31,974 nucleotides of DNA from a virus. Position numbers and translations under genes: made by a program. A model generated the notes under the pieces. The model saw nothing but the letters and a program-made list of their open reading frames with translations, had not been told where the DNA came from and did no database searches. The stretch lies in IMG/VR virus record IMGVR_UViG_3300042455_000490, positions 1-31,974 of that record, one strand, 5' to 3'. Shown here piece by piece: positions 243 to 17,755 of this stretch (positions are counted from its first letter, which is position 1; the number at the start of each line of letters is the position of its first letter).

Positions 243-250
243 TATTTATT
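243..250 (-). promoter_or_regulatory. Late-promoter-like octamer AATAAATA before the metallopeptidase-like gene
   Basis: On the minus strand this reads AATAAATA and ends 6 nt before the ATG at 236. It overlaps the stop codon of the bilin reductase gene. The spacing is much shorter than the 16-26 nt seen for most copies in this window, so it would give a leaderless or nearly leaderless transcript, or be a chance match. Confidence 0.3.
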
Positions 251-926
251 GTATTTCAGGAAACAAACATTCCTGAACAAACACCGCTATATCCTGCTCG
301 TCTAACCCTAAACTAGCCATAACTTTAGGTGTGTGGGGGTTTTGTTTTTGATTCTGTGCATAATAGTTCTGCTGATCTTTTGTGCTTTCCGACATATTGT
401 TAGTTTCACCTACACATTCTGTATAGTGATTTACTAAGATATTAGCAAGACTTGCAATTTGTGCTAATTCTGATTCATCACTAACATTGCCCGCTGCAAT
501 CATATGAGGACTAAAGATACGTTCAGCCCATTCAGGTAACTTACGTGGTTTATTCCAATCGTAGCGACCAACTTCATCGGCAAAATATTCAATCATAGGA
601 TGATCAAAATCACCGGTAGGACTGTAGTCAATAAAACAGCCAGTTATCTTATTTTTACCTGCTATTACATCAAAGCCAAAAATAGGAGCAGGGTTGTGTG
701 TATGTGGAAACACACAGCAGTGCATCATCCATAGACCTTTAGTTGCTCTAGCATCTACTACATCAATGTGAGCACGCCGATAGTTGTTGCTGGTCCACAC
801 ACGATTGATCCAGCCTGGCTGATTAAATCGATCCATCCCGGGTTCAAAAATTTCTGTTCCCGTGGCTTCGAATCTACTTTCCAACAACTGTTGGATCTCT
901 GTTAATGTATGCCAGACCTGACTCAT
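246..926 (-). CDS. pcyX: Ferredoxin-dependent bilin reductase, PcyX-like
   Basis: The 226-aa protein fits the ferredoxin-dependent bilin reductase family (PcyA, PebA, PebB, PebS, PcyX), which reduce biliverdin IXalpha in two-electron steps using ferredoxin. The core around residues 66-103 carries the family pattern, including FGFD and AGKNK. His69 and Asp86 are exactly 17 residues apart, as are the catalytic His88 and Asp105 of Synechocystis PcyA. The position matching PcyA Glu76, which serves D-ring vinyl reduction, is Val57 or Asp58, so a PcyA-type phycocyanobilin product is less likely. Phage PcyX enzymes make phycoerythrobilin from biliverdin and occur beside a heme oxygenase, as here. 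The start ATG overlaps the heme oxygenase stop by ATGA. Family assignment is firm; the PcyX subtype and product are inferred. Confidence 0.85.
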   Translation of the reverse strand: MSQVWHTLTEIQQLLESRFEATGTEIFEPGMDRFNQPGWINRVWTSNNYRRAHIDVVDARATKGLWMMHCCVFPHTHNPAPIFGFDVIAGKNKITGCFIDYSPTGDFDHPMIEYFADEVGRYDWNKPRKLPEWAERIFSPHMIAAGNVSDESELAQIASLANILVNHYTECVGETNNMSESTKDQQNYYAQNQKQNPHTPKVMASLGLDEQDIAVFVQECLFPEIQ

Positions 927-1459
927 TTGTCTAATTCTTCAAATAGATCAATAGCAGAATCAAAGCATAAATTGGCCTCGGCAGCCATGTCGTCCGTGAG
1001 CAATGACCTCACTCGATCGATCAGTTCTTTTTTATTTTCAAATTCATAGTATTTGCAAAGACCTGGGCTAACTTTGGCAATCATGGCTCCACCAAACATA
1101 TCTCCAAAGTGTCTTACATAAAGATGCGGAATCAGTTCAACAGCAGATTTTGTGTCAACGTATTCGATATATGCTTTAGTGCTAGGTTGTAGTCTAACTG
1201 CGTTTCTGTCGAAACTGTATTCTATTTCTAACCAACCTATGTCTTCTACAATTTTTTCTGTTCTTAGAATTTTTAAAAGATCATGATCTTTTAACCATTT
1301 TTCTAACTTTTTTTCTAATGCTTGATAACAGGCCAACTGATTCAGCAGATATTCATAATATCTTTTGGGTTCAAGTTGACCTTTGACTAGTTTGCCGGCA
1401 AACGATTGTCTTTCGGCTCTAGTATGTGCTTCTAATGTTAATTGTCTTAAATTATTCAC
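923..1459 (-). CDS. ho1: Heme oxygenase (biliverdin-forming)
   Basis: This 178-aa protein is a HugZ-unrelated, HO-1-fold heme oxygenase: it opens heme to biliverdin IXalpha, CO and free iron with electrons from ferredoxin or another reductant. The proximal heme ligand is His12 in the EAHTRAE context typical of the family, and the distal-helix glycines are in HFGDMFGG at 117-124. It is somewhat shorter than cyanobacterial HO1 (about 240 aa), as are other phage versions. It starts with GTG, overlapping the clpS stop in GTGA, and its stop overlaps the bilin reductase start, so substrate maker and substrate user are translated together. No signal peptide is visible; it should act in the cytoplasm. 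I am confident of the family; the electron donor is not visible here. Confidence 0.92.
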   Translation of the reverse strand: MNNLRQLTLEAHTRAERQSFAGKLVKGQLEPKRYYEYLLNQLACYQALEKKLEKWLKDHDLLKILRTEKIVEDIGWLEIEYSFDRNAVRLQPSTKAYIEYVDTKSAVELIPHLYVRHFGDMFGGAMIAKVSPGLCKYYEFENKKELIDRVRSLLTDDMAAEANLCFDSAIDLFEELDK

Positions 1460-1758
1460 TCTTCCTCCATACGAATTTGCAATGGAAATCCATTTGAGCG
1501 AGCAAGATTAGTCGACTCAACTGCTTTGATTTCTGCAATTTCGTATGAATAAACACCTGCTACACCACTTCCACTATTATGTATCTGAAGTGTGATGTCA
1601 CCAGAGGTCTCTTCTGAATGACGGAAGATTTCAATCAATATTTGTTTGACAAATTCCATCGGGGTTGAATTGTCGTTTAGAAAAACAACTTTCCAACGTT
1701 TGGGTTCTTCAACACGAATTTTAATTTTTTCGTCTAATTTGATATCAGTATCCGACAT
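1456..1758 (-). CDS. clpS: ClpS adaptor protein for ClpAP/ClpCP protease
   Basis: The 100-aa protein has the whole ClpS core: WKVVFLND (22-29), TPMEFV (32-37), His60, GVAGVYSYEIAEIKA (65-79) and ARSNGFPL (86-93). ClpS delivers N-degron substrates to the ClpA chaperone. The residues that hold the substrate N-terminus in E. coli ClpS (Asn34, Asp35, His66) are kept as Asn28, Asp29 and His60, but the next Asp (Asp36) is Asn30, which could shift binding strength or selectivity. A ribosome binding site (AAGGGAG) and a late-promoter-like motif precede it. Its stop overlaps the heme oxygenase GTG. A phage copy would use the host Clp protease, since none is encoded here. Confidence 0.92.
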   Translation of the reverse strand: MSDTDIKLDEKIKIRVEEPKRWKVVFLNDNSTPMEFVKQILIEIFRHSEETSGDITLQIHNSGSGVAGVYSYEIAEIKAVESTNLARSNGFPLQIRMEEE

Positions 1759-1813: not shown

Positions 1814-2239
1814 TTATTTAATTAAGATTTGTCGTGGTTTTAGTGCTTCAGGAACTACACGCTCGATTTCAATCACAAGCATGCCGTCCTTGACTTCTGC
1901 CGCTTTGACTTCCATATACTCAGCAAGAGTAAATGTTTGTTCAAAGTCTCTAGCGGCTAACCCACGATGTAGATATTCGAAACGACTATCTGCCTGATTT
2001 AGTCTGCGCCCTGTAACAGTGAGTTGATCTTGATCAACTTCCACTGTGATTTCTTCTTTACTAAAACCGGCTACGGCAATTTCGATGCCATAGTGTGTTT
2101 CATCGTATTTGACAATGTTGTGTGGGGGATAATTGCCATTGGTATTGGCAAAATGTCCGTTAAAATAACGGTCAAATCCCACAAGTGCTCTGTTTAGATT
2201 GGCAAGATGTGCCGTGTCGATAGTTCTAAGTTGGTTCAT
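1814..2239 (-). CDS. hsp20: Small heat shock protein Hsp20 (IbpA-like)
   Basis: The 141-aa protein holds an alpha-crystallin domain at about residues 38-128 (YGIEIAVAGFSKEEITVEV, LTVTGRR, RDFEQTFTLAEYMEV, GMLVIEIER) and a C-terminal ILI (IxI) motif used for oligomer contacts. Such ATP-independent holdases bind unfolding proteins and pass them to DnaK; Hsp20 is one of the commonest host-like genes in marine T4-like phages. It lies between dnaK and clpS, 84 nt after dnaK, with an AAAGGAG ribosome binding site. A hairpin in the dnaK-hsp20 gap may adjust its level. No promoter motif was seen directly upstream, so it is probably read from the dnaK promoter. Confidence 0.93.
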   Translation of the reverse strand: MNQLRTIDTAHLANLNRALVGFDRYFNGHFANTNGNYPPHNIVKYDETHYGIEIAVAGFSKEEITVEVDQDQLTVTGRRLNQADSRFEYLHRGLAARDFEQTFTLAEYMEVKAAEVKDGMLVIEIERVVPEALKPRQILIK

Positions 2240-2323: not shown

Positions 2324-4195
2324 TTATTTGGTTTCTGTAAATTCTGCATCTACTGTGGGCGATGCCTGATCAGTAGCAGATTTACGATTTTTTGCTTCAT
2401 TGAGTGGTGCAGATTTTTCAAACAATTTGGTCAATGATTCTTGAATAGCATCTTTATCTGTTTGAGACGTAGTTGTCTCTACAGATTTAATAGCATCTTC
2501 AATTTCAGTTTTTTGTTCAGGAGTGATCAATGCAGCCACTTCTTCTAAATCTTTACGTACACTGTGCAATTGAGATTCAGCAAGATTTCGTGTTTCGATA
2601 AGTTCACGTTGTTTTTTATCTTCTTCAGCATTTAATTCAGCATCTTTAATCATCTGTTGAATTTCTGCTTCATTTAAGCCAGAATCTGATTTGATAGTAA
2701 TTTTATTTTCTTTACCTGTGCGCTCGTCTTTGGCAGACACATTTAAAATTCCGTTAGCGTCAATATCAAATGTCACATTGATCTGTGGCATGCCGCGTGG
2801 TGCTGCCGCAATACCTTCAAGATTAAATTCACCCAATATTTTATTGTGTGTGCATAATTCTCTTTCACCCTGGAATACTTTGATAGTCACTGCTGGTTGA
2901 TTGTCCTGCGCAGTACTAAACACTTGACTGGCCTTGGTTGGGATAGTAGTATTTTTAGTAATTAACTTGGTCATTACTCCGCCCAACGTTTCGATACCAA
3001 GACTCAATGGAGTGACGTCCAACAACAGCACATCTGTTTTGTCACCACTCAACACTGATCCCTGAATTGCTGCACCTACTGCTACTGCTTCGTCTGGATT
3101 AACATCTTTACGTGGCTGCTTACCGAACAGTTTTTCAACTGCTTCTTGCACTTTAGGCATGCGAGTCTGTCCACCAACAAGGATAACTTCGTCAATATCT
3201 GCGGCAGTAACACCTGCATCTTTCAATGCAATTTTACAAGGTTCCAAACTACGTGAGATCAACTCATCAACCAACTGTTCGAGTTTGGCTCTAGTCAATT
3301 TAACATTCATGTGCTTAGGACCGCTGGTGTCAGCAGTGATGTAAGGTAAGTTGACATCTGTTTGAGCACTACTTGACAATTCAATTTTTGCCTTTTCAGC
3401 AGATTCTTTTAGACGTTGTAATGCCAACATGTCTTTCTTAAGATCGATACCACTGTCTTTCTTAAACTCATCAACCAAATAATCCATGATACGTTGGTCA
3501 AAGTCTTCACCGCCTAAGAATGTGTCGCCGTTAGTACTCAACACTTCGATCTGTTTGTCACCGTCTACATTCGCGATTTCAATGATCGATACATCGAAAG
3601 TGCCGCCACCAAGGTCGTAAACAGCGATTTTACGATCACGGTTATCAGTTTTATCAACGCCATACGCAAGAGCTGCCGCAGTAGGCTCGTTAATAATACG
3701 GAGTACCTCCAAACCGGCAATTTTACCAGCATCTTTAGTTGCCTGCCTTTGGCTGTCATTAAAATATGCGGGAACTGTGATAACTGCTTGAGTAACTTCA
3801 TGTCCTAGATAATCCTCTGCAGTCTTTTTCATTTTGCGAAGAACTTCTGCTGAAATTTGTGGAGGTGCTAATTTTTGATCTTTGGCTTCTACCCATGCAT
3901 CGCCGTTGTCGGCTTTGATAATCTTGTAGGGCATTAGATCAATGTCTTTTTGCACAGCCTGTTCGTCAAACTTACGACCGATTAGTCGCTTGCTGGCGTA
4001 GATTGTGTTTTTTGGATTTGTCACTGCTTGACGTTTTGCAGTAGCACCTACCAAGATCTCATTATCCGTATAGGCTACGATTGAGGGGGTAGTTCTAGCA
4101 CCTTCAGAGTTTTCAATAACTTTACTGATGCCGTTTTCTATAATGGCCACGCAACTGTTAGTGGTGCCAAGGTCAATACCGATGATTTTGCTCAT
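2324..4195 (-). CDS. dnaK: Hsp70 chaperone DnaK
   Basis: A full-length DnaK of 623 aa. The ATPase domain begins with [13 protein letters not shown] (6-18), has [13 protein letters not shown] near residue 192-204 and [12 protein letters not shown] near 340; the substrate-binding domain and lid follow, ending in DAEFTETK, close to the bacterial DxEFEEVK tail. It refolds proteins with DnaJ and GrpE, neither of which is present here, so host cochaperones would be used. It is DnaK rather than HscA by its N-terminus and tail. An AAGGAGAAC ribosome binding site precedes the ATG, and the leader carries a late-promoter-like motif and a hairpin. Full-length dnaK is rare in phages compared with hsp20; no sign of decay is seen. 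Confidence 0.95.
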
Positions 4196-4266: not shown

Positions 4267-5229
4267 TTAATTGTTCCAACCAACTTCTTTGATGATCGGA
4301 ATCCACTGTTTTCGTAAATCCATCATGCTTGCTTCAAAACCTTTGGGATTTTGCTCCCTAGGCTCTGCAAACATTAAATTATCTCTAATAAATTGCTTGC
4401 CTTCTGGACTGTTAATTGCAGTCCTAAAATTTACAACATACCAGTCTATAATTTCTTTGTTTGTTCCCTTGGGGAATATAATACCCCATGCGGCATACAC
4501 ATTCATGCCCGGAACAAAGTCTTTCATTAAAGGCACATCTCTAAGACCTTCTAAACGATACTCGCTAGTCAGTGCAATGATTTTAACCTTTCCAGATTTT
4601 ACTAACACATTAGCAACTGCAACAGGAATAATACCAAATTCTAAGTGTCCGCCCGCTACATCCTGACCTGCTTGTGCAGGACCTTTATAAGGTATAGTTT
4701 TAATAAGTGATCTGTTGCCTTTAATGTTATACATCATGTATTCGTAGGCAAGTTTGTGGGCACCAGAACCTGCGGCAATACTGATTGGCTTTTGCGGGTT
4801 CTTCATTCGATCCATGAACTCTTTAGGAGTATTAGTAGGACTTTCGTGATGGGCAATAATAGCCAATGGGCTTTTTGCCAATGTTAATCCGTATTCGAAA
4901 TCGTCAAGTTGGTATCTCTTGTTTTCTGGATTGGCAAACTCGGCAGTGACCCAAATACCTTGATGACTGGCAATATAGACGTGATGGCCGTCATTGGGCA
5001 ATTTAACAAAGTGATTCATGCCTATGGTGCCATCACCGCCTGGACGATTTTCCACAATAAAACTAATCTTAGGATTAGCCTTTTCTATAAGACTGCTAAA
5101 TCCTCTAAAACTTAATTCATTACCTGATCCTGGAGCAAACCCGATAACTGTTGTTACTGGTTTGGTTGGCTCCCATGCGTGTGCCGCAACACTCATGAAT
5201 AGCGATATTGCTATTAAAATTTTATTCAT
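4267..5229 (-). CDS. TctC/Bug-family periplasmic solute-binding protein
   Basis: This 320-aa protein starts at ATG 5229, chosen over an in-frame ATG 12 nt upstream because GGAGGAGA lies just before it and the signal peptide then begins cleanly. Residues 1-18 form a signal peptide ending AHA before Trp19. FAPGSGNE (31-38) and ENRPGGDGTIG (60-70) are hallmarks of the Bug/TctC family, which bind carboxylates in the periplasm for tripartite tricarboxylate (TTT) transporters. No TctA or TctB membrane gene is nearby, so it would need a host transporter, or act in sensing. The start overlaps the methyltransferase stop by ATGA and its ribosome site lies inside that gene. It is last in an operon with an early-type promoter. 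The ligand cannot be told. Confidence 0.88.
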   Translation of the reverse strand: MNKILIAISLFMSVAAHAWEPTKPVTTVIGFAPGSGNELSFRGFSSLIEKANPKISFIVENRPGGDGTIGMNHFVKLPNDGHHVYIASHQGIWVTAEFANPENKRYQLDDFEYGLTLAKSPLAIIAHHESPTNTPKEFMDRMKNPQKPISIAAGSGAHKLAYEYMMYNIKGNRSLIKTIPYKGPAQAGQDVAGGHLEFGIIPVAVANVLVKSGKVKIIALTSEYRLEGLRDVPLMKDFVPGMNVYAAWGIIFPKGTNKEIIDWYVVNFRTAINSPEGKQFIRDNLMFAEPREQNPKGFEASMMDLRKQWIPIIKEVGWNN

Positions 5230-5747
5230 TGTCTCCTCCATTCTGAATAAATTCTGTTTCGATCTATGCCTAGATCAATAATCTCAAATCCGTAATCCTT
5301 GGCTAGAGTTTTGTGCCATTGTTCAGACCAAGGAAAGAAATCTATTTGTTTACATTCCTCATTGTCATGATCTTGCTGTCCCGGATTACACCGCCAGTAG
5401 ATTCTTGCTTGAGGTTTTAAACATTTAATTATACACTCTATTTGTCGTCGTATAATTTCAATACCACCAAAGTTAACACTACCAAGACACAGTGCTACAT
5501 CAAACTGTCGATCAGGAATAAATTCTTCAATAGTGACTTTTTGATCGGCTTCGTCGAATGCAGGATCAATGCCTACAATGTTTTTGATCTTGTCTTTGAA
5601 CAAGTTACGTCCGCACCCAACATCTAGTACCCACTCGTCGTCTGTAATTTTATCAGCCAACCCATACCCGGTAGTGTTGTATTTGGGGACACCTTTGTGG
5701 CCCCAGTGATTGGCAAAGTAATAATTTAAATAGTTTTGATCTGTCAT
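5226..5747 (-). CDS. Class I SAM-dependent methyltransferase
   Basis: The protein (173 aa from ATG 5747) has the SAM-binding motif I VLDVGCG at 40-46, the acidic end of the next strand in IVGIDP, and a later FDVALCLGSV strand, in the order of Rossmann-fold class I methyltransferases. The substrate is unknown. Start 5747 forms an ATGA overlap with the upstream gene's stop; an alternative ATG at 5777 would add 10 residues and overlap by 34 nt. It is third in the operon from exonuclease to tctC, and its last codons hold the tctC ribosome binding site. The neighbouring sulfotransferase-like gene suggests work on a small molecule or surface glycan, but this is only a guess. Confidence 0.75.
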   Translation of the reverse strand: MTDQNYLNYYFANHWGHKGVPKYNTTGYGLADKITDDEWVLDVGCGRNLFKDKIKNIVGIDPAFDEADQKVTIEEFIPDRQFDVALCLGSVNFGGIEIIRRQIECIIKCLKPQARIYWRCNPGQQDHDNEECKQIDFFPWSEQWHKTLAKDYGFEIIDLGIDRNRIYSEWRRQ

Positions 5748-10986: not shown

Positions 10987-11316
10987 TTACGATCGATTGG
11001 CTACTAGGGTCAACATGTCTTCGTAATCCATACCGCTGAGTTGATCTCCCAACTCCATTACACAGTCTTCGGCTGTTTCCCAACCCGATATACCCAAAAG
11101 TTCATAAACTTCGCGTTTAGATACTTCTTCTGCCCGCATGTAGCATACCCAAAGTACTGTGACAAATCCCAAAGTGAAAATTGTTTCTTGGTCAACTACG
11201 TAGTGTCTCTCGGCCCAATCAATAGTTTGATTGAGATAATAGTTTAAATCTTCCAGACGATTTTCCATCTGTGCTATCCAATATTGAGTGTCATTCCTAG
11301 TCCAATATTTTGTCAT
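10987..11316 (-). CDS. Unknown small acidic protein in the isc operon
   Basis: A 109-aa, mostly helical, acidic protein rich in Tyr and Trp ([25 protein letters not shown] region at 4-28), with a hydrophobic helix at about 46-60 and two Cys. No family is recognised. Its ATG overlaps the iscA stop (ATGA), making it the last gene of the His-rich/iscU/iscA operon. By position it could be an Fe-S cluster partner or regulator (small acidic IscX/Fdx-like roles come to mind), but it lacks the motifs of IscX and of ferredoxin, so this is not claimed. Confidence 0.6.
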
Positions 11317-11633
11317 ACTCTGAAACTTTCACCACATCCGCAACGATCACGTTCATTTGGATTGCGAAACTCGAAACCTTCATTCAGCCCGTTTCGAACC
11401 CAATCCACTTCCACACCTTGGATATACGCAAGACTTTTTGGATCAACAAATAACTTGCATCCCTGGCTTTCAAAACATTGATCGTCTGTAGTTAGACTAT
11501 CTACATATTCCAACACATAGGCAAGGCCACTGCATCCTGTAGTTTTTACACCTAGTCGGATGCCCACACCTCGTCCACGTTTAGTCAACTGCTGTTTTAT
11601 TTTTTTAGCCGCTGTGTCGGTTACGGTAATCAT
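11313..11633 (-). CDS. iscA: A-type Fe-S carrier IscA
   Basis: The 106-aa protein is an HesB/IscA family member with all three ligand cysteines: Cys34 in [14 protein letters not shown], and Cys98 and Cys100 in the C-terminal [10 protein letters not shown]. The context [17 protein letters not shown] and NEGFEF resembles proteobacterial IscA more than ErpA or SufA. It receives clusters from IscU and passes them to targets, or binds iron. The start lies 29 nt inside iscU; the stop overlaps the next start. No defect is visible, so it should be active. Confidence 0.93.
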
Positions 11634-11991
11634 TTACGGCTGCTTTGATGGCATCTTCAGCCAATATTGAACAATGTATCTTAACTGGCGGTAGGGCTAG
11701 TTCTTCGGCGATTTCGGAGTTTTTAATTGCTCCGGCTTGGTCAAGTGTTTTTCCTTTGACCCATTCCGTAATGAGGCTTGAACTCGCGATAGCCGATCCG
11801 CAGCCATACGTTTTAAATTTTGCATCTGTAATAATACCTGTATCATGATCAACCTTTATCTGTAGTTTCATTACGTCGCCGCAAGCAGGTGCGCCAACCA
11901 TACCAGTACCAACACTAGGATCACTCTTGTCAAAAGATCCGACATTCCTGGGATTTTCATAGTGGTCTACAACCTTATCTGAGTATGCCAT
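11605..11991 (-). CDS. iscU: Fe-S cluster scaffold IscU
   Basis: From ATG 11991 the product is 128 aa, and closely follows proteobacterial IscU. The three ligand cysteines are Cys37 (PACGD, with Asp39), Cys64 (YGCGSA) and Cys107 (KIHCSIL), and the LPPVK motif recognised by the Hsp70 HscA is intact. IscU assembles [2Fe-2S] clusters with sulfur from IscS; no iscS, hscB, hscA or fdx is in the window, so host partners would be used. A TTG four codons upstream is possible but the family N-terminus MAYSDKV fits 11991. The ATG shares one base with the stop of the secreted His-rich gene. Strong similarity to host-type IscU suggests relatively recent capture from an ISC-containing bacterium. Confidence 0.95.
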
Positions 11992-12290
11992 TATTGTGTA
12001 CAAGTCCTTTCACGATAGACTTGTCCATCGGAATTTTGTATTTCTTTCCACTCAGTACAAACTGTTTGACGTTGTATGATTACTGACTGCGGTGGTTGTA
12101 CTATTATAGGAGACTGTTGATTCTCTCTAGCAATTACTGCACCTGCGATTCCGCCAATGACCAACGGTGCTACCCAGTAACCAAAGCCTGGACCCGCATG
12201 ACGATGGCCATGATGACGCCAGTGATGATTATGTTGAGCGAATGCTGTGGCACTGACCGTTAGTAACAGAACAGTTAAAAGTTTTTTCAT
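11991..12290 (-). CDS. Exported His-rich protein with glycine zipper
   Basis: A 99-aa protein with a clear signal peptide (1-18, ending AFA before Gln19). The mature N-terminus has seven His in residues 20-31, a likely metal or heme-binding stretch, then a Gly-rich hydrophobic segment at about 33-55 (VIGGIAGAVIA, a glycine-zipper pattern), a Pro/Gln linker and a C-terminal part with two Cys that may form a disulfide. The family is not recognised beyond resemblance to small YMGG/glycine-zipper envelope proteins. Its stop and the iscU start share one base, so envelope metal binder and cluster scaffold are translated together. Periplasmic iron or heme handling is an attractive but unproven reading. 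Confidence 0.72.
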   Translation of the reverse strand: MKKLLTVLLLTVSATAFAQHNHHWRHHGHRHAGPGFGYWVAPLVIGGIAGAVIARENQQSPIIVQPPQSVIIQRQTVCTEWKEIQNSDGQVYRERTCTQ

Positions 12291-14328: not shown

Positions 14329-15429
14329 TTATAATGCGGGTAATTCTTCGTAGTTTACACTGTCACTCATAATGCCAATAACATAGTTAGTGCTTTCGTT
14401 TTCTTGCAGTGCAGTTTGTTTCTTGCTGGTGTCCACGTGTTTATTGAACCACGGGATTGGTGTAGTCTTGGGCGCGGTGTTCCAGTATTTAATACCAACG
14501 TCTTTCAACGCTGCCACTGCTGTATAATCTACAAAGTCTTTCAGTATGTTGGCATTTAGACCAATCACCGGTCCTTTTTGGAATAGATAGTCTGCCCACG
14601 CTTTTTCTTCTTGTATAACGCCTTTGTACAATTCAATCACCTCTTGTTCGCACTCGCGAGCAGCCACTACAAATCGAGGATCTTCCTTAACCACTTGGTT
14701 GATCAAATAGGCAGTCCACCCTTTGTGTAGCAGTTCGTCTTGCAGAATCAGACTGATGATGTTGCCGTTGCCAATGAAGATCTTGTTCTCAACCATGGCC
14801 AAACTAGTAGCGAACGATACCATGAAGCGGAATGCCTCCAAAGCGTAACTGGCGTGTAGTGCCAACCAAACGGCTTTAACGTGTTCCTTCTCAGTGACTT
14901 CCATGCCAAGTTCTTTGCGGCAGTTGATAGCGTGTAACTTGTCATAGTAGTTGCCCACACTTGATGCCATGTCTACAATTTCTTTGGTATCATGGATGGT
15001 GTTAAACACATCCTTGGGCACATTATAAATGTTACGAATGATATGACTGTAACTCTTGCTGTGAATGTTAGTTTCAAAGAAACCCCAGTTGTACATCAGT
15101 GCTTCAACTTCGGGCAGACTACAAACAGGAGTGAATACCTGTGTTGGTCCACGACCTTGCAAACTATCAAGTGCTGTTTGACGTAACAAGTTGCTGGTAA
15201 AGATATGCTTGACAGCATCGCTGGCATCTTTAAAGTCATTTGCATCTTTACTAAGACTAATTTCTTCTGGTTGCCAGAAGAAGCCACGGGCTGTAGCATC
15301 GAAGTCTGCAATCTTTTTATATTTGACTTCTTCGAAGCGTTGGATAGTAACTGGCCCTGCTGGATCTAGAAACATCTTACGGCTTAGATAGTCTGTCTTT
15401 GTTGTTAAGTTGTATTGTTGTTTTGACAT
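14329..15429 (-). CDS. nrdB: Ribonucleotide reductase class Ia small subunit NrdB
   Basis: The 366-aa product (start 15429, 4 nt after the nrdA stop; an ATG 42 nt upstream lies inside nrdA) is an R2 subunit that makes the tyrosyl radical at a diiron site. Ligands match E. coli R2: Asp88 (LDSLQGR), Glu119, His123, Glu198 (LEAFRF), Glu232 and His235 (QDELLH); the radical Tyr is Tyr127 (HSKSY). One oddity: the usual ExxH of ligands 2 and 3 is ETNIH here, with one extra residue, although the Asp-Glu (31) and Glu-Glu (34) distances equal those of E. coli. It should supply deoxynucleotides with NrdA. Whether the insertion changes the metal or cofactor is unknown. Confidence 0.95.
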   Translation of the reverse strand: MSKQQYNLTTKTDYLSRKMFLDPAGPVTIQRFEEVKYKKIADFDATARGFFWQPEEISLSKDANDFKDASDAVKHIFTSNLLRQTALDSLQGRGPTQVFTPVCSLPEVEALMYNWGFFETNIHSKSYSHIIRNIYNVPKDVFNTIHDTKEIVDMASSVGNYYDKLHAINCRKELGMEVTEKEHVKAVWLALHASYALEAFRFMVSFATSLAMVENKIFIGNGNIISLILQDELLHKGWTAYLINQVVKEDPRFVVAARECEQEVIELYKGVIQEEKAWADYLFQKGPVIGLNANILKDFVDYTAVAALKDVGIKYWNTAPKTTPIPWFNKHVDTSKKQTALQENESTNYVIGIMSDSVNYEELPAL

Positions 15430-15433
15430 AGTT

Positions 15434-17755
15434 TTATAATTTGCATGATTCGCAATCTTCTTCGTCATCAAAGTTGATAGGCTCTAACATAGTAGGAGCA
15501 TCTTCTGCAACAGCCTTGCTACCTGCCTTGTTGATTAGACTGTAGTAGAATGTTTTCAATCCCCATACGTGTGCCTGCATCAAGTTCTTGGCGATCAATG
15601 TAGTTGGCACTTTACGATCTGCCCAGTGTGCAGGATTGTAAAATGTGTTTGTTGAAATACTTTGGTCGACATAGGCGGCAAGAACTGCTGCGGTTTTTAG
15701 GTATCCAACGCAGTCCTTTTGTTCCCACATCATTTGATATTTGTTTTTCAGTTTGGCATATTCAGGAACAACCTGAGTGAATGACCCTGCTTTTGATTCC
15801 TTGGTACTGATCAAACTCATGGGCATTTCAATGCCATTGGTTGAGTTAATAACAACACTGGAACTTTCTACAGGGGCAATGGCCATCAATGTGGCATTAC
15901 GCACACCGTACTGCTTCATATTACCACGTAGTGATTCCCAGTCTAGTTCCGGAGCGAAGTCTACTAATTCATTAACTCCCTTGGCACGTAGTTCCCAGGG
16001 GAATACGCCTTGACCGTATCTAGTTTTGTGACTTTCTGTACATGGGCCACGCTCTTTGGCCAACTCCACTGTGGCTTCTGTTAGATAATAGGCCTGATGT
16101 TCCATCCATGTCTTAACTTCTTGCAGTGCATCTTTGTCGCCATACTTTAGGCCACGCTTGGCATGCCAGTAGGCCAAATTGGTAATACCAATGCCCAACG
16201 GTTGTATCTCGTCATTACTCAATTTACTTTGTATTGACAAGAAGTCTTGATAGTCAAGAATGTTACACAGGCTACGCTGTAGAATCCTGCAGGCTCTACG
16301 CATATCCTCTGGGTTCCGGAACGATCCCCAGTTGATAGATCCCAGTGTACATAACGCTATGCGGCCACTGTCGTCGTCTAATCGTTTGAATGGACGTGTG
16401 GGTAATAGGATCTCACAGCACAAGTTACTCTGATATATCGTATGATATTCAGGATCAAAGGGTCCTTGACTCATTACATTGTCAATGAACACCAAATAGA
16501 TTCGACCGGTGTCTGTGCGTTCTTTCAGTATACCACTCTTGAACACTTCTTCGGCGCTCATCGTTTTCTTACGGAGGCCTTTTTGTTTTTCATATTTTAC
16601 ATATAGTTCTTCAAACAATGCAGTGTCTTTGTAAAATGCTTCATACAAGTCTGGCACTTCATTGGGGTCAAAGAAAGTTATGTCTTCTTTGTTTTTAAAT
16701 CGTCTCCAGAAGAAAGCACTAAGCACAACCCCATAATCCATATGACGGACTCGGGTTTCTTCTGTTCCTTGGTTGTTCTTAAGAACAATAAGATCATCAA
16801 ACTGATGATGCCAAATAGGATAAAATACAGTAGCACTTGCATTACGAATACCTCCCTGCGAACATGATCGCAAATCACCGAACCATTTTTTCAGGAAAGG
16901 TATCATACCTGTGTGCATAATCTCACCACCTCTGATGGGACTACCCAACGGACGTAAGCGTCCTATCTCCAAACCAATGCCCGCTCGCTTGCTGGCATAC
17001 TTGGCCATCATTTCCCCAGAGGCAAAAATAGAGTCCAGATCGTCATCGCTACGAATAAGAACACAGGAACTAAACTGTTTGGTAGGAGTACCAAGGCCAG
17101 CAAGTACAGGAGTAGCAAGAGTAAAAAGACCATCACTGGCGGCGTTGTAATACTCTTTGATATAACGCATACGTGCTGAGTTAGGTTCTTCTTTATGGAA
17201 TACAGTTGCGGCTGCAACCATGTAACGAATTTGTGGAGTTTCATATGTCTGTTTAGTACTACGATTCTTAACCAAGTACTTCTCAATCAACTGCTCAATG
17301 GCAGCATAACTGTACTGTTCATCTTTTTCATGATCCAGCATGTCATTCATCTTGTTCCAGTCTTCTTCACTATACCACTCGAGCAGTTCGCTAGTATACA
17401 GTCCAGTGGCCACATTGGTCTTGACGATAGAATAAAGATCTGGCACTGTGTAACTGCCATAGATATCTTTGCGTAACATGCTAAGGCGTTGTTTGCCCGC
17501 TACATATTGATAGTTAGTATGCCCAACATCTGGATTAGATTCTACATCAATAAGATCCACAATGGCACGTAGTGTTATTTCATCTATTTCTCTAGTAGTG
17601 ATACCGTCGTAGAAATGAGGTTGCGCTTTGATCTCAATCATGCTTTGACTGACATCGGCAATGTTTTTACATACTTTTGCTATCTGAGTTTGCCATTTTT
17701 CAATGGTCAATTGCTCACGTTGACCATTTCTCTTTATTACTGTTATGTTGTTCAT
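15434..17755 (-). CDS. nrdA: Ribonucleotide reductase class Ia large subunit NrdA
   Basis: The 773-aa protein has an N-terminal ATP-cone (about 3-95), Cys231 (SSCVL) and Cys469 as the redox pair, the catalytic Asn444-Cys446-Glu448 set in SNLCCEI, and a Tyr-Tyr pair near residue 740 for radical transfer. It reduces ribonucleotides to deoxyribonucleotides. The C-terminal shuttle pair is CESC (Cys768, Cys771), a CxxC rather than the CxxxxC of E. coli. The ATP-cone suggests dATP-sensitive control is kept. Both an early-type and a late-type promoter precede it. No intron or homing endonuclease interrupts it, unlike in some T4-like phages. Confidence 0.96.
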   Translation of the reverse strand: MNNITVIKRNGQREQLTIEKWQTQIAKVCKNIADVSQSMIEIKAQPHFYDGITTREIDEITLRAIVDLIDVESNPDVGHTNYQYVAGKQRLSMLRKDIYGSYTVPDLYSIVKTNVATGLYTSELLEWYSEEDWNKMNDMLDHEKDEQYSYAAIEQLIEKYLVKNRSTKQTYETPQIRYMVAAATVFHKEEPNSARMRYIKEYYNAASDGLFTLATPVLAGLGTPTKQFSSCVLIRSDDDLDSIFASGEMMAKYASKRAGIGLEIGRLRPLGSPIRGGEIMHTGMIPFLKKWFGDLRSCSQGGIRNASATVFYPIWHHQFDDLIVLKNNQGTEETRVRHMDYGVVLSAFFWRRFKNKEDITFFDPNEVPDLYEAFYKDTALFEELYVKYEKQKGLRKKTMSAEEVFKSGILKERTDTGRIYLVFIDNVMSQGPFDPEYHTIYQSNLCCEILLPTRPFKRLDDDSGRIALCTLGSINWGSFRNPEDMRRACRILQRSLCNILDYQDFLSIQSKLSNDEIQPLGIGITNLAYWHAKRGLKYGDKDALQEVKTWMEHQAYYLTEATVELAKERGPCTESHKTRYGQGVFPWELRAKGVNELVDFAPELDWESLRGNMKQYGVRNATLMAIAPVESSSVVINSTNGIEMPMSLISTKESKAGSFTQVVPEYAKLKNKYQMMWEQKDCVGYLKTAAVLAAYVDQSISTNTFYNPAHWADRKVPTTLIAKNLMQAHVWGLKTFYYSLINKAGSKAVAEDAPTMLEPINFDDEEDCESCKL

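Follow-up and report, generated by a model that had tools for sequence, protein, structure and literature searches.

A heme oxygenase and PcyX-type bilin reductase pair at the end of a chaperone gene block in a phage with a probable betaproteobacterial host

Why would a phage make a bilin if its host probably has no phycobilisomes? The question is raised by a virus record of 31,974 bases, linear and fragmentary, which we call the window; near its first base it carries the genes for a heme oxygenase (HO) and a ferredoxin-dependent bilin reductase (FDBR). The explanation we favour, with a probability of roughly two in three, is a working pathway from HO through PcyX to phycoerythrobilin (PEB), encoded by the end genes of a larger block in a betaproteobacterial phage. 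HO would open heme to biliverdin IXalpha, freeing Fe2+ and CO, and PcyX would carry out the four-electron reduction of biliverdin to PEB with electrons from host ferredoxin. The carrier would be a large T4-related phage, and the host most likely a betaproteobacterium without phycobilisomes.

The enzyme pair and its active sites

The features of the window that we refer to are the following.

246..926, minus strand: PcyX-type ferredoxin-dependent bilin reductase, 226 aa; D55, H69, D86
923..1459, minus strand: heme oxygenase, 178 aa, GTG start; H12, HFGDMFGG at 117-124
1456..1758, minus strand: ClpS-type ClpAP adaptor, 100 aa; PF02617, E 5.6e-25
1814..2239, minus strand: HSP20 small heat-shock protein, 141 aa
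2324..4195, minus strand: DnaK chaperone, 623 aa
4267..5241, minus strand: TctC-type periplasmic binding protein; cargo outside the conserved block
11313..11633, minus strand: IscA-type Fe-S biosynthesis protein; bears on the iron hypothesis
11605..12003, minus strand: IscU/NifU-N-type scaffold for iron-sulfur assembly; bears on the iron hypothesis
14329..15471, minus strand: ribonucleotide reductase small chain; iron demand, presumed from its class

The sequence-only reading had placed an HO and a bilin reductase here in overlapping frames, and both are found, with Pfam matches. The HO matches PF01126 (E 6.4e-17), and its top PDB match is 1WE1 (E 1e-9). The His12 and HFGDMFGG noticed earlier are in place, and the GD..GG distal-helix motif is conserved. 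The proximal His is kept in 79/79 HOs of window type and 4/4 from contigs binned into MAGs; in relatives of the Mosig type, named after a phage described below, H12 is present in 66/71, the exceptions being three gaps and two Phe. Judged by profile, His and GD..GG, the window HO is a divergent yet typical member of its family.

The reductase matches Pfam PF05996 (E 1.2e-15) and PHROG 7278 (E 4.9e-24). Its closest solved structure by sequence is PcyX_EBK42635 (PDB 5OWG, E 2.4e-63); PcyA trails at 3.6e-16, and no PebS chains appear among the PDB sequence matches up to E 1. An AlphaFold2 model (pLDDT 91.9) matches 5OWG at 1.2 Å, and the structure match is again better for PcyX (3.1e-15) than for PcyA (2.5e-12). 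Residues H88 and D105 of Synechocystis PcyA align to H69 and D86 of the window, with the spacing of 17 that had been read from the letters. The absence of the PcyA Glu76 also holds: D55 stands in its place, and all six PcyA compared have Glu there. A passage of PMC11480375 names Asp55 as the PcyX-specific catalytic residue. The three residues are D, H and D in 81/81 window-type FDBRs (window counted), in 81/81 Mosig-type FDBRs (Mosig counted) and in 4/4 FDBRs on the MAG-binned contigs, and Asp55 is also found in 4/4 FDBRs of contigs reached through a tail domain (see below). We find related stretches of the window reductase in 272 places in viral contigs; with so many viral relatives and the 5OWG structure match, the presence of both genes is far beyond chance.

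We placed the reductase in a tree of 66 FDBR rows, obtained from 173 by removing near-copies and built without alphaproteobacterial PcyA and without the phage enzyme CB_2. Among these rows PcyA is set apart with support 100/100, on long branches, and the phylogeny suggested by the sequence-only reading gives no grouping of the window enzyme with PcyA. Both reference PcyX fall on the window side of the tree, beyond a branch of 1.35 (100/100). PcyX_EBK42635 is like the window enzyme in sequence, in predicted fold and in its Asp at the D55 place, but is separated by that branch from the window-type enzymes. By sequence and modelled fold the window reductase is nearer PcyX than PcyA, and the label PcyX-like proposed earlier looks apt. 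We consider it improbable that the enzyme is instead a PcyA-like member of a joint group and makes phycocyanobilin (PCB). Such a group does exist, in that one clade unites alphaproteobacterial PcyA with phage PcyX (in a part of PMC10151467), and CB_2, the sole freshwater phage enzyme tested according to sections of PMC11480375, is a PcyA. Against PCB as product, the window has D55 instead of Glu, while CB_2 is said there to lack D55, and 5OWG comes out on top in both the sequence and the fold comparison.

A block of chaperone genes around a known kind of pair

Reductase matches occur in 27 of 50,697 phage records, and in only one of these does the match span at least 80% of the reductase: Mosig EXVC030M (MT647606), a phage grown on Candidatus Pelagibacter ubique, with a PcyX-type reductase beside an HO. 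As in the window, HO precedes PcyX and overlaps it; the two PcyX are 46.7% identical, and Mosig has D55. Wegner et al. 2024 (PMC11480375, in the part considered here) describe marine hemO-pcyX, of likely pelagiphage origin, together with an aquatic-phage hemO-pcyA/X-valaS cassette; they call the co-occurrence of its genes enigmatic. By the same account PcyX had until then been found only in viruses of marine environments, and the peat-bog (freshwater) phage CB_2 has a hemO-pcyA pair whose enzyme makes PCB. The cassette resembles the relatives of the window in HO, FDBR and, for 9/37 relatives, 5-aminolevulinate synthase (AlaS); it differs in that the enzyme tested, from CB_2, is reported as a PcyA lacking Asp55. 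Since Mosig carries the pair and hemO-pcyX of marine phages is published, the HO-PcyX pair and its non-cyanobacterial setting are known in kind and not new.

The surroundings of the pair are another matter. On the minus strand of the window, from base 4195 down to 246, lie DnaK, HSP20, ClpS, HO and the bilin reductase, a block that the sequence-only reading did not list. We compared the loci of 80 of the 272 window-type relatives, 80 of 194 Mosig-type relatives and four MAG-binned contigs. The five-gene order is present in 70/84 window-type or MAG loci (69 + 1), and 7 further loci show HSP20-ClpS-HO-PcyX; near-copies are frequent among the loci, and additional genes interrupt the block in some. 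HO and PcyX overlap by 4 nt (923-926), as do ClpS and HO (1456-1459), the latter overlap recurring in 53/74 window-type loci with starts called mechanically. These overlaps suggest coupled translation. The window ClpS belongs to its family by profile and by the residues of its N-degron pocket: against a sequence that we take to be E. coli ClpS, it agrees at 6/7 marked pocket positions, and it has N30 where most relatives have D. The setting in Mosig differs: the pair is flanked by 2OG-Fe oxygenase genes on one side and neck genes on the other, and no ClpS, HSP20 or DnaK adjoins it; its genome has an HSP20 gene away from the pair. Likewise, ClpS, HSP20 and DnaK occur in 0/81 Mosig-type stretches fetched, of which only 56 have room for ClpS and 30 for DnaK.

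We found no earlier description of this block in the literature searched. The words DnaK, ClpS and chaperon are absent from the main text of PMC11480375, and related large freshwater phages are reported, in a portion of PMC7674155, with HSP20 and without DnaK, ClpS or heme oxygenase. The five-gene block around the pair looks new. We take the four loci on MAG-binned contigs (L164-L167) to be wrongly binned phage contigs, as they keep HSP20-ClpS-HO-PcyX and phage-type neighbours, and we leave their organism labels out of the host evidence.

Several other genes accompany the block. Extra genes separate HO from PcyX in L031, L040, L043, L047, L048, L166 and L167, and in the last two a gene in between is nitrilase-like by eye. 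Upstream of the block, 17/80 window-type loci as well as L166 and L167 encode a protein of about 339 to 374 aa, by eye similar to GMP reductase or IMP dehydrogenase. Downstream of PcyX we see curli-like genes, all named by eye: a CsgF-like gene (159 aa) in 40/80 window-type loci, a CsgG-like gene (312 aa) in 38/80 and, in 36/80, a gene for a repeat protein of about 267 aa that is CsgA/B-like. The PcyX of L003 is identical to that of the window and is followed by the 159- and 312-aa genes, so such genes may lie beyond window base 1. Pelagimyophages and phage Melnitz have CsgGF without CsgA/B, according to a part of PMC9004378.

Heme supply and electron supply can be judged from the larger relatives, whose records may be fragments. 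AlaS is above the curated cut-off in 9/37 of them, near-copies counted, and in these phages heme synthesis and heme breakdown could be driven together. A PF00111 ferredoxin occurs in 0/37 records, which points to host ferredoxin as the electron source; the annotation of Mosig includes a 2Fe-2S ferredoxin. A ferrochelatase in relatives was considered on a match of 33% to the gene labelled 'ferrochelatase' in Mosig, and dropped, because by eye the sequence starts like a 2OG-Fe oxygenase and the label in Mosig may itself be mistaken.

Evidence on the host

The sequence-only reading had argued for a non-cyanobacterial host from the ISC and TctC genes. That basis is weak; the conclusion itself gains from the placement of DnaK and from tmRNA. 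The TctC-type gene (window 4267-5241) is matched in 4/82 loci; it is recent cargo and might tell the host.

We searched 299 Pseudomonadota genomes for DnaK. After thinning, the phage DnaKs number 31 rows, the window and L164 among them, and all group in a single clade (SH-aLRT 100). In this quick tree with SH-aLRT values only, that clade joins one of 14 bacterial DnaKs at SH-aLRT 94. Twelve of these 14 come from genomes with the site of the betaproteobacterial 23S probe BET42a, for which we used what we take to be the probe sequence. Fifty of the 299 genomes were checked for this site, and it is present in 16/19 genomes with the best DnaK matches vs 3/31 others. Three large relatives (L177, L183, L194) have a permuted tmRNA above the Rfam beta_tmRNA threshold, and in L177, which belongs to the 265-kb record G036, 28 tRNA genes adjoin it. 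As a host marker beta_tmRNA itself was set aside: it is above the cut-off in only 1/50 bacterial genomes and thus marks no broad host group in the sample, and the 23S probe site was used instead. Taken as traces of old gene transfers, the DnaK placement and the tmRNA of three relatives point to a host that is probably non-cyanobacterial and betaproteobacterial. This betaproteobacterial assignment looks new.

A cyanophage whose bilin serves a cyanobacterial phycobilisome after all is very hard to reconcile with these data, and we give it hardly any weight. It draws on a tail domain of the larger relatives, described next, which is shared by 195 records that are cyanophages by name and by one single-cell marine virus. 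The window reductase, however, is distant from cyanophage PcyA, the DnaK and tmRNA indicate betaproteobacteria, and Mosig, with the same pair, infects Pelagibacter.

A phycobiliprotein-fold tail repeat and the use of the bilin

A possible acceptor for the bilin is found in the relatives of the window. Weak matches to PF00502, below the cut-off, lie inside giant proteins of 3/38 PcyX-type records; the best of them scores 18.7 bits vs a curated cut-off of 22.2, and 0/38 records are above it. The matching segment is a repeat, and its KCxRDIGY....VTY....GG is spaced like the chromophore site of phycocyanin alpha. Of the 38 matches that phmmer gives against the PDB at E <= 10, phycocyanin chains account for the best 32, and phycobiliproteins for 3 of the remaining 6; the best whole-sequence E is 3.6e-4 and the best single stretch, among the alignments listed, 0.0024. 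The reverse search of 50,697 phages with what is presumably the phycocyanin alpha sequence yields 20 records at E <= 1, all Synechococcus phages, with a best E of 0.02, and the named genes among these matches are tail, fibre, baseplate or structural proteins. The S-PM2 short tail fibre (L334) is among the Synechococcus phage tail proteins with the repeat. HHalign gives 93.7% for the repeat against nine phycobiliproteins, 1.1% for the best of 41 other profiles and 0.1% for reversed phycobiliproteins.

An AlphaFold2 model of one repeat reaches pLDDT 95.7. The best 45 Foldseek matches of this model are phycobiliprotein or phycobilisome chains, except for row 6, labelled 'bacterial fluorescent protein'; the best has E 2.7e-3, prob 1.0 and TM 0.76, with none at E <= 0.001. 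VIA aligns 129 residues to phycoerythrin beta at 2.2 Å with Z 16.3, on a scale where, by the tool's own note, unmatched helical models can reach about 14. The tail repeat is, in its predicted structure, of phycobiliprotein fold. We found no earlier description of a tail domain with this fold in the literature searched, and the finding looks new. It is like phycobiliproteins and bilin biosynthesis-associated globins in fold and in the CxRD motif, but differs from them in being repeated within phage tail proteins and in scoring below the Pfam cut-off; it is known from sequence and model.

The CxRD motif is widespread and incompletely kept. Across 80 contigs with the domain, C is present in 410/470 copies with a letter at that position, R in 410/470 and D in 448/470; all three occur together in 391/520 aligned rows from the 80 contigs, and CxRD in 100/125 thinned copies. 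The 265-kb record G036 keeps the Cys in only 5/13 copies; among the genes on its pieces L169, L170 and L179, several resemble flavin-dependent halogenases and radical-SAM enzymes by eye. The tail proteins that hold the repeats range from about 750 to 4,400 aa. In L239 the carrier is 752 aa long; its N-terminal domain is of the major-tropism-determinant kind, and it matches tail-fibre PHROGs.

How closely does the domain follow the bilin genes? It is present in 10/38 PcyX-type records, namely 6/6 of at least 100 kb (G035 and G036 apparently being near-copies) and 4/32 smaller ones. We see none in the window or in its near relatives G001-G003, and none in T4, HTVC008M, Atu_ph07, PA5oct, AG-345-L05, Mosig (recorded as complete) and P-SSM2, which presumably has pebS. 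It is present in S-PM2, P-SSM4 and P-SSM7, and altogether in 196 records of isolate phages, cyanophages by name save the single-cell marine virus. Starting from the domain, we fetched 80 of 348 contigs and searched 39 for FDBR. Four of the 39 have one, including 3/3 above 200 kb; the whole block is present in three of the four (G341 and G342 apparently being near-copies), and the fourth, G352, has ClpS-HO-PcyX. The other 35, mostly short, show no FDBR; they include 6/7 between 100 and 200 kb. Five contigs of 114 to 199 kb (two apparently near-copies) have no HO, PcyX or psbA, and CxRD is kept about equally well in them. That these FDBR-less contigs are psbA cyanophages was rejected, with psbA in 0/5 in a search run without a parallel positive control.

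What, then, would the PEB be used for? The use to which we tentatively assign the largest share, still short of an even chance, is iron and heme turnover, in which HO would free the iron of host heme for the iron users of the phage while PcyX clears biliverdin and PEB is waste. The window has IscU- and IscA-type genes and a ribonucleotide reductase, Mosig has the pair and no tail domain yet many 2OG-Fe oxygenase genes, and iron supply has been discussed before, according to a passage of PMC11480375. AlaS in 9/37 relatives, which would feed heme synthesis, fits this use poorly, and the invariant D55 suggests that the identity of the product matters, unless catalysis as such requires D55. A doubtful but possible use is as a chromophore bound by the phycobiliprotein-fold repeats of the phage's own tail proteins. 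The fold, the profile match of 93.7% vs at most 1.1% for 41 others and the CxRD in many copies speak for it, as do the domain in all six PcyX-type records of at least 100 kb and the FDBR in all three domain records above 200 kb; moreover, globins that bind bilins and have CxRD can be loaded with no lyase, as stated in part of PMC10151467. On the other side, 35/39 domain contigs have no FDBR, six of them between 100 and 200 kb, and five of those six have no HO or psbA with CxRD kept about as well. The Cys count in G036 is low, and the CpeT lyase is found in 0/38 IMG/VR PcyX-type records by a search that finds it in S-PM2 and P-SSM4. The window itself has no domain, nor do Mosig, with the pair, and P-SSM2. 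Common ancestry could account for much of the co-occurrence of domain and bilin genes.

Similarly doubtful is a stress module, in which DnaK, HSP20 and ClpS would guard and sort proteins, HO and PcyX would remove pro-oxidant heme or biliverdin, and the reduced bilin would act as antioxidant. The five-gene order in 70/84 loci and the 4-nt ClpS/HO overlap in 53/74 agree with such a module, but the Mosig-type phages have the pair without the block, and adjacency alone does not show joint function. A host bilin photoreceptor, named as a possible user when the letters alone were read, found no support, with GAF domains in 0/38 records, and is very improbable; some other use of the bilin is unlikely, though less so. 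Just as speculative as the tail chromophore, and if anything slightly more so, is a fuller scheme in which PEB would load the repeats in receptor-binding tail proteins of large non-cyanobacterial phages and give pigmented, possibly light-responsive virions, with DnaK, HSP20 and ClpS helping to fold these giant proteins, and in which cyanophage tails would use host bilin.

The pair, which in the favoured reading gives a working pathway to PEB in a probably betaproteobacterial phage, is linked here with a chaperone block, in some relatives with AlaS, and in the same phages with tail proteins of phycobiliprotein fold. A known kind of cassette is placed in an operon setting unseen in the literature searched, and the block supplies both a genetic unit and a hint of the host. 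The tail domain is a candidate bilin acceptor. If it binds phage-made bilin, the particles would carry a light-absorbing pigment; if not, tails have taken up the fold of a bilin protein as a building block, which bears on the evolution of both.
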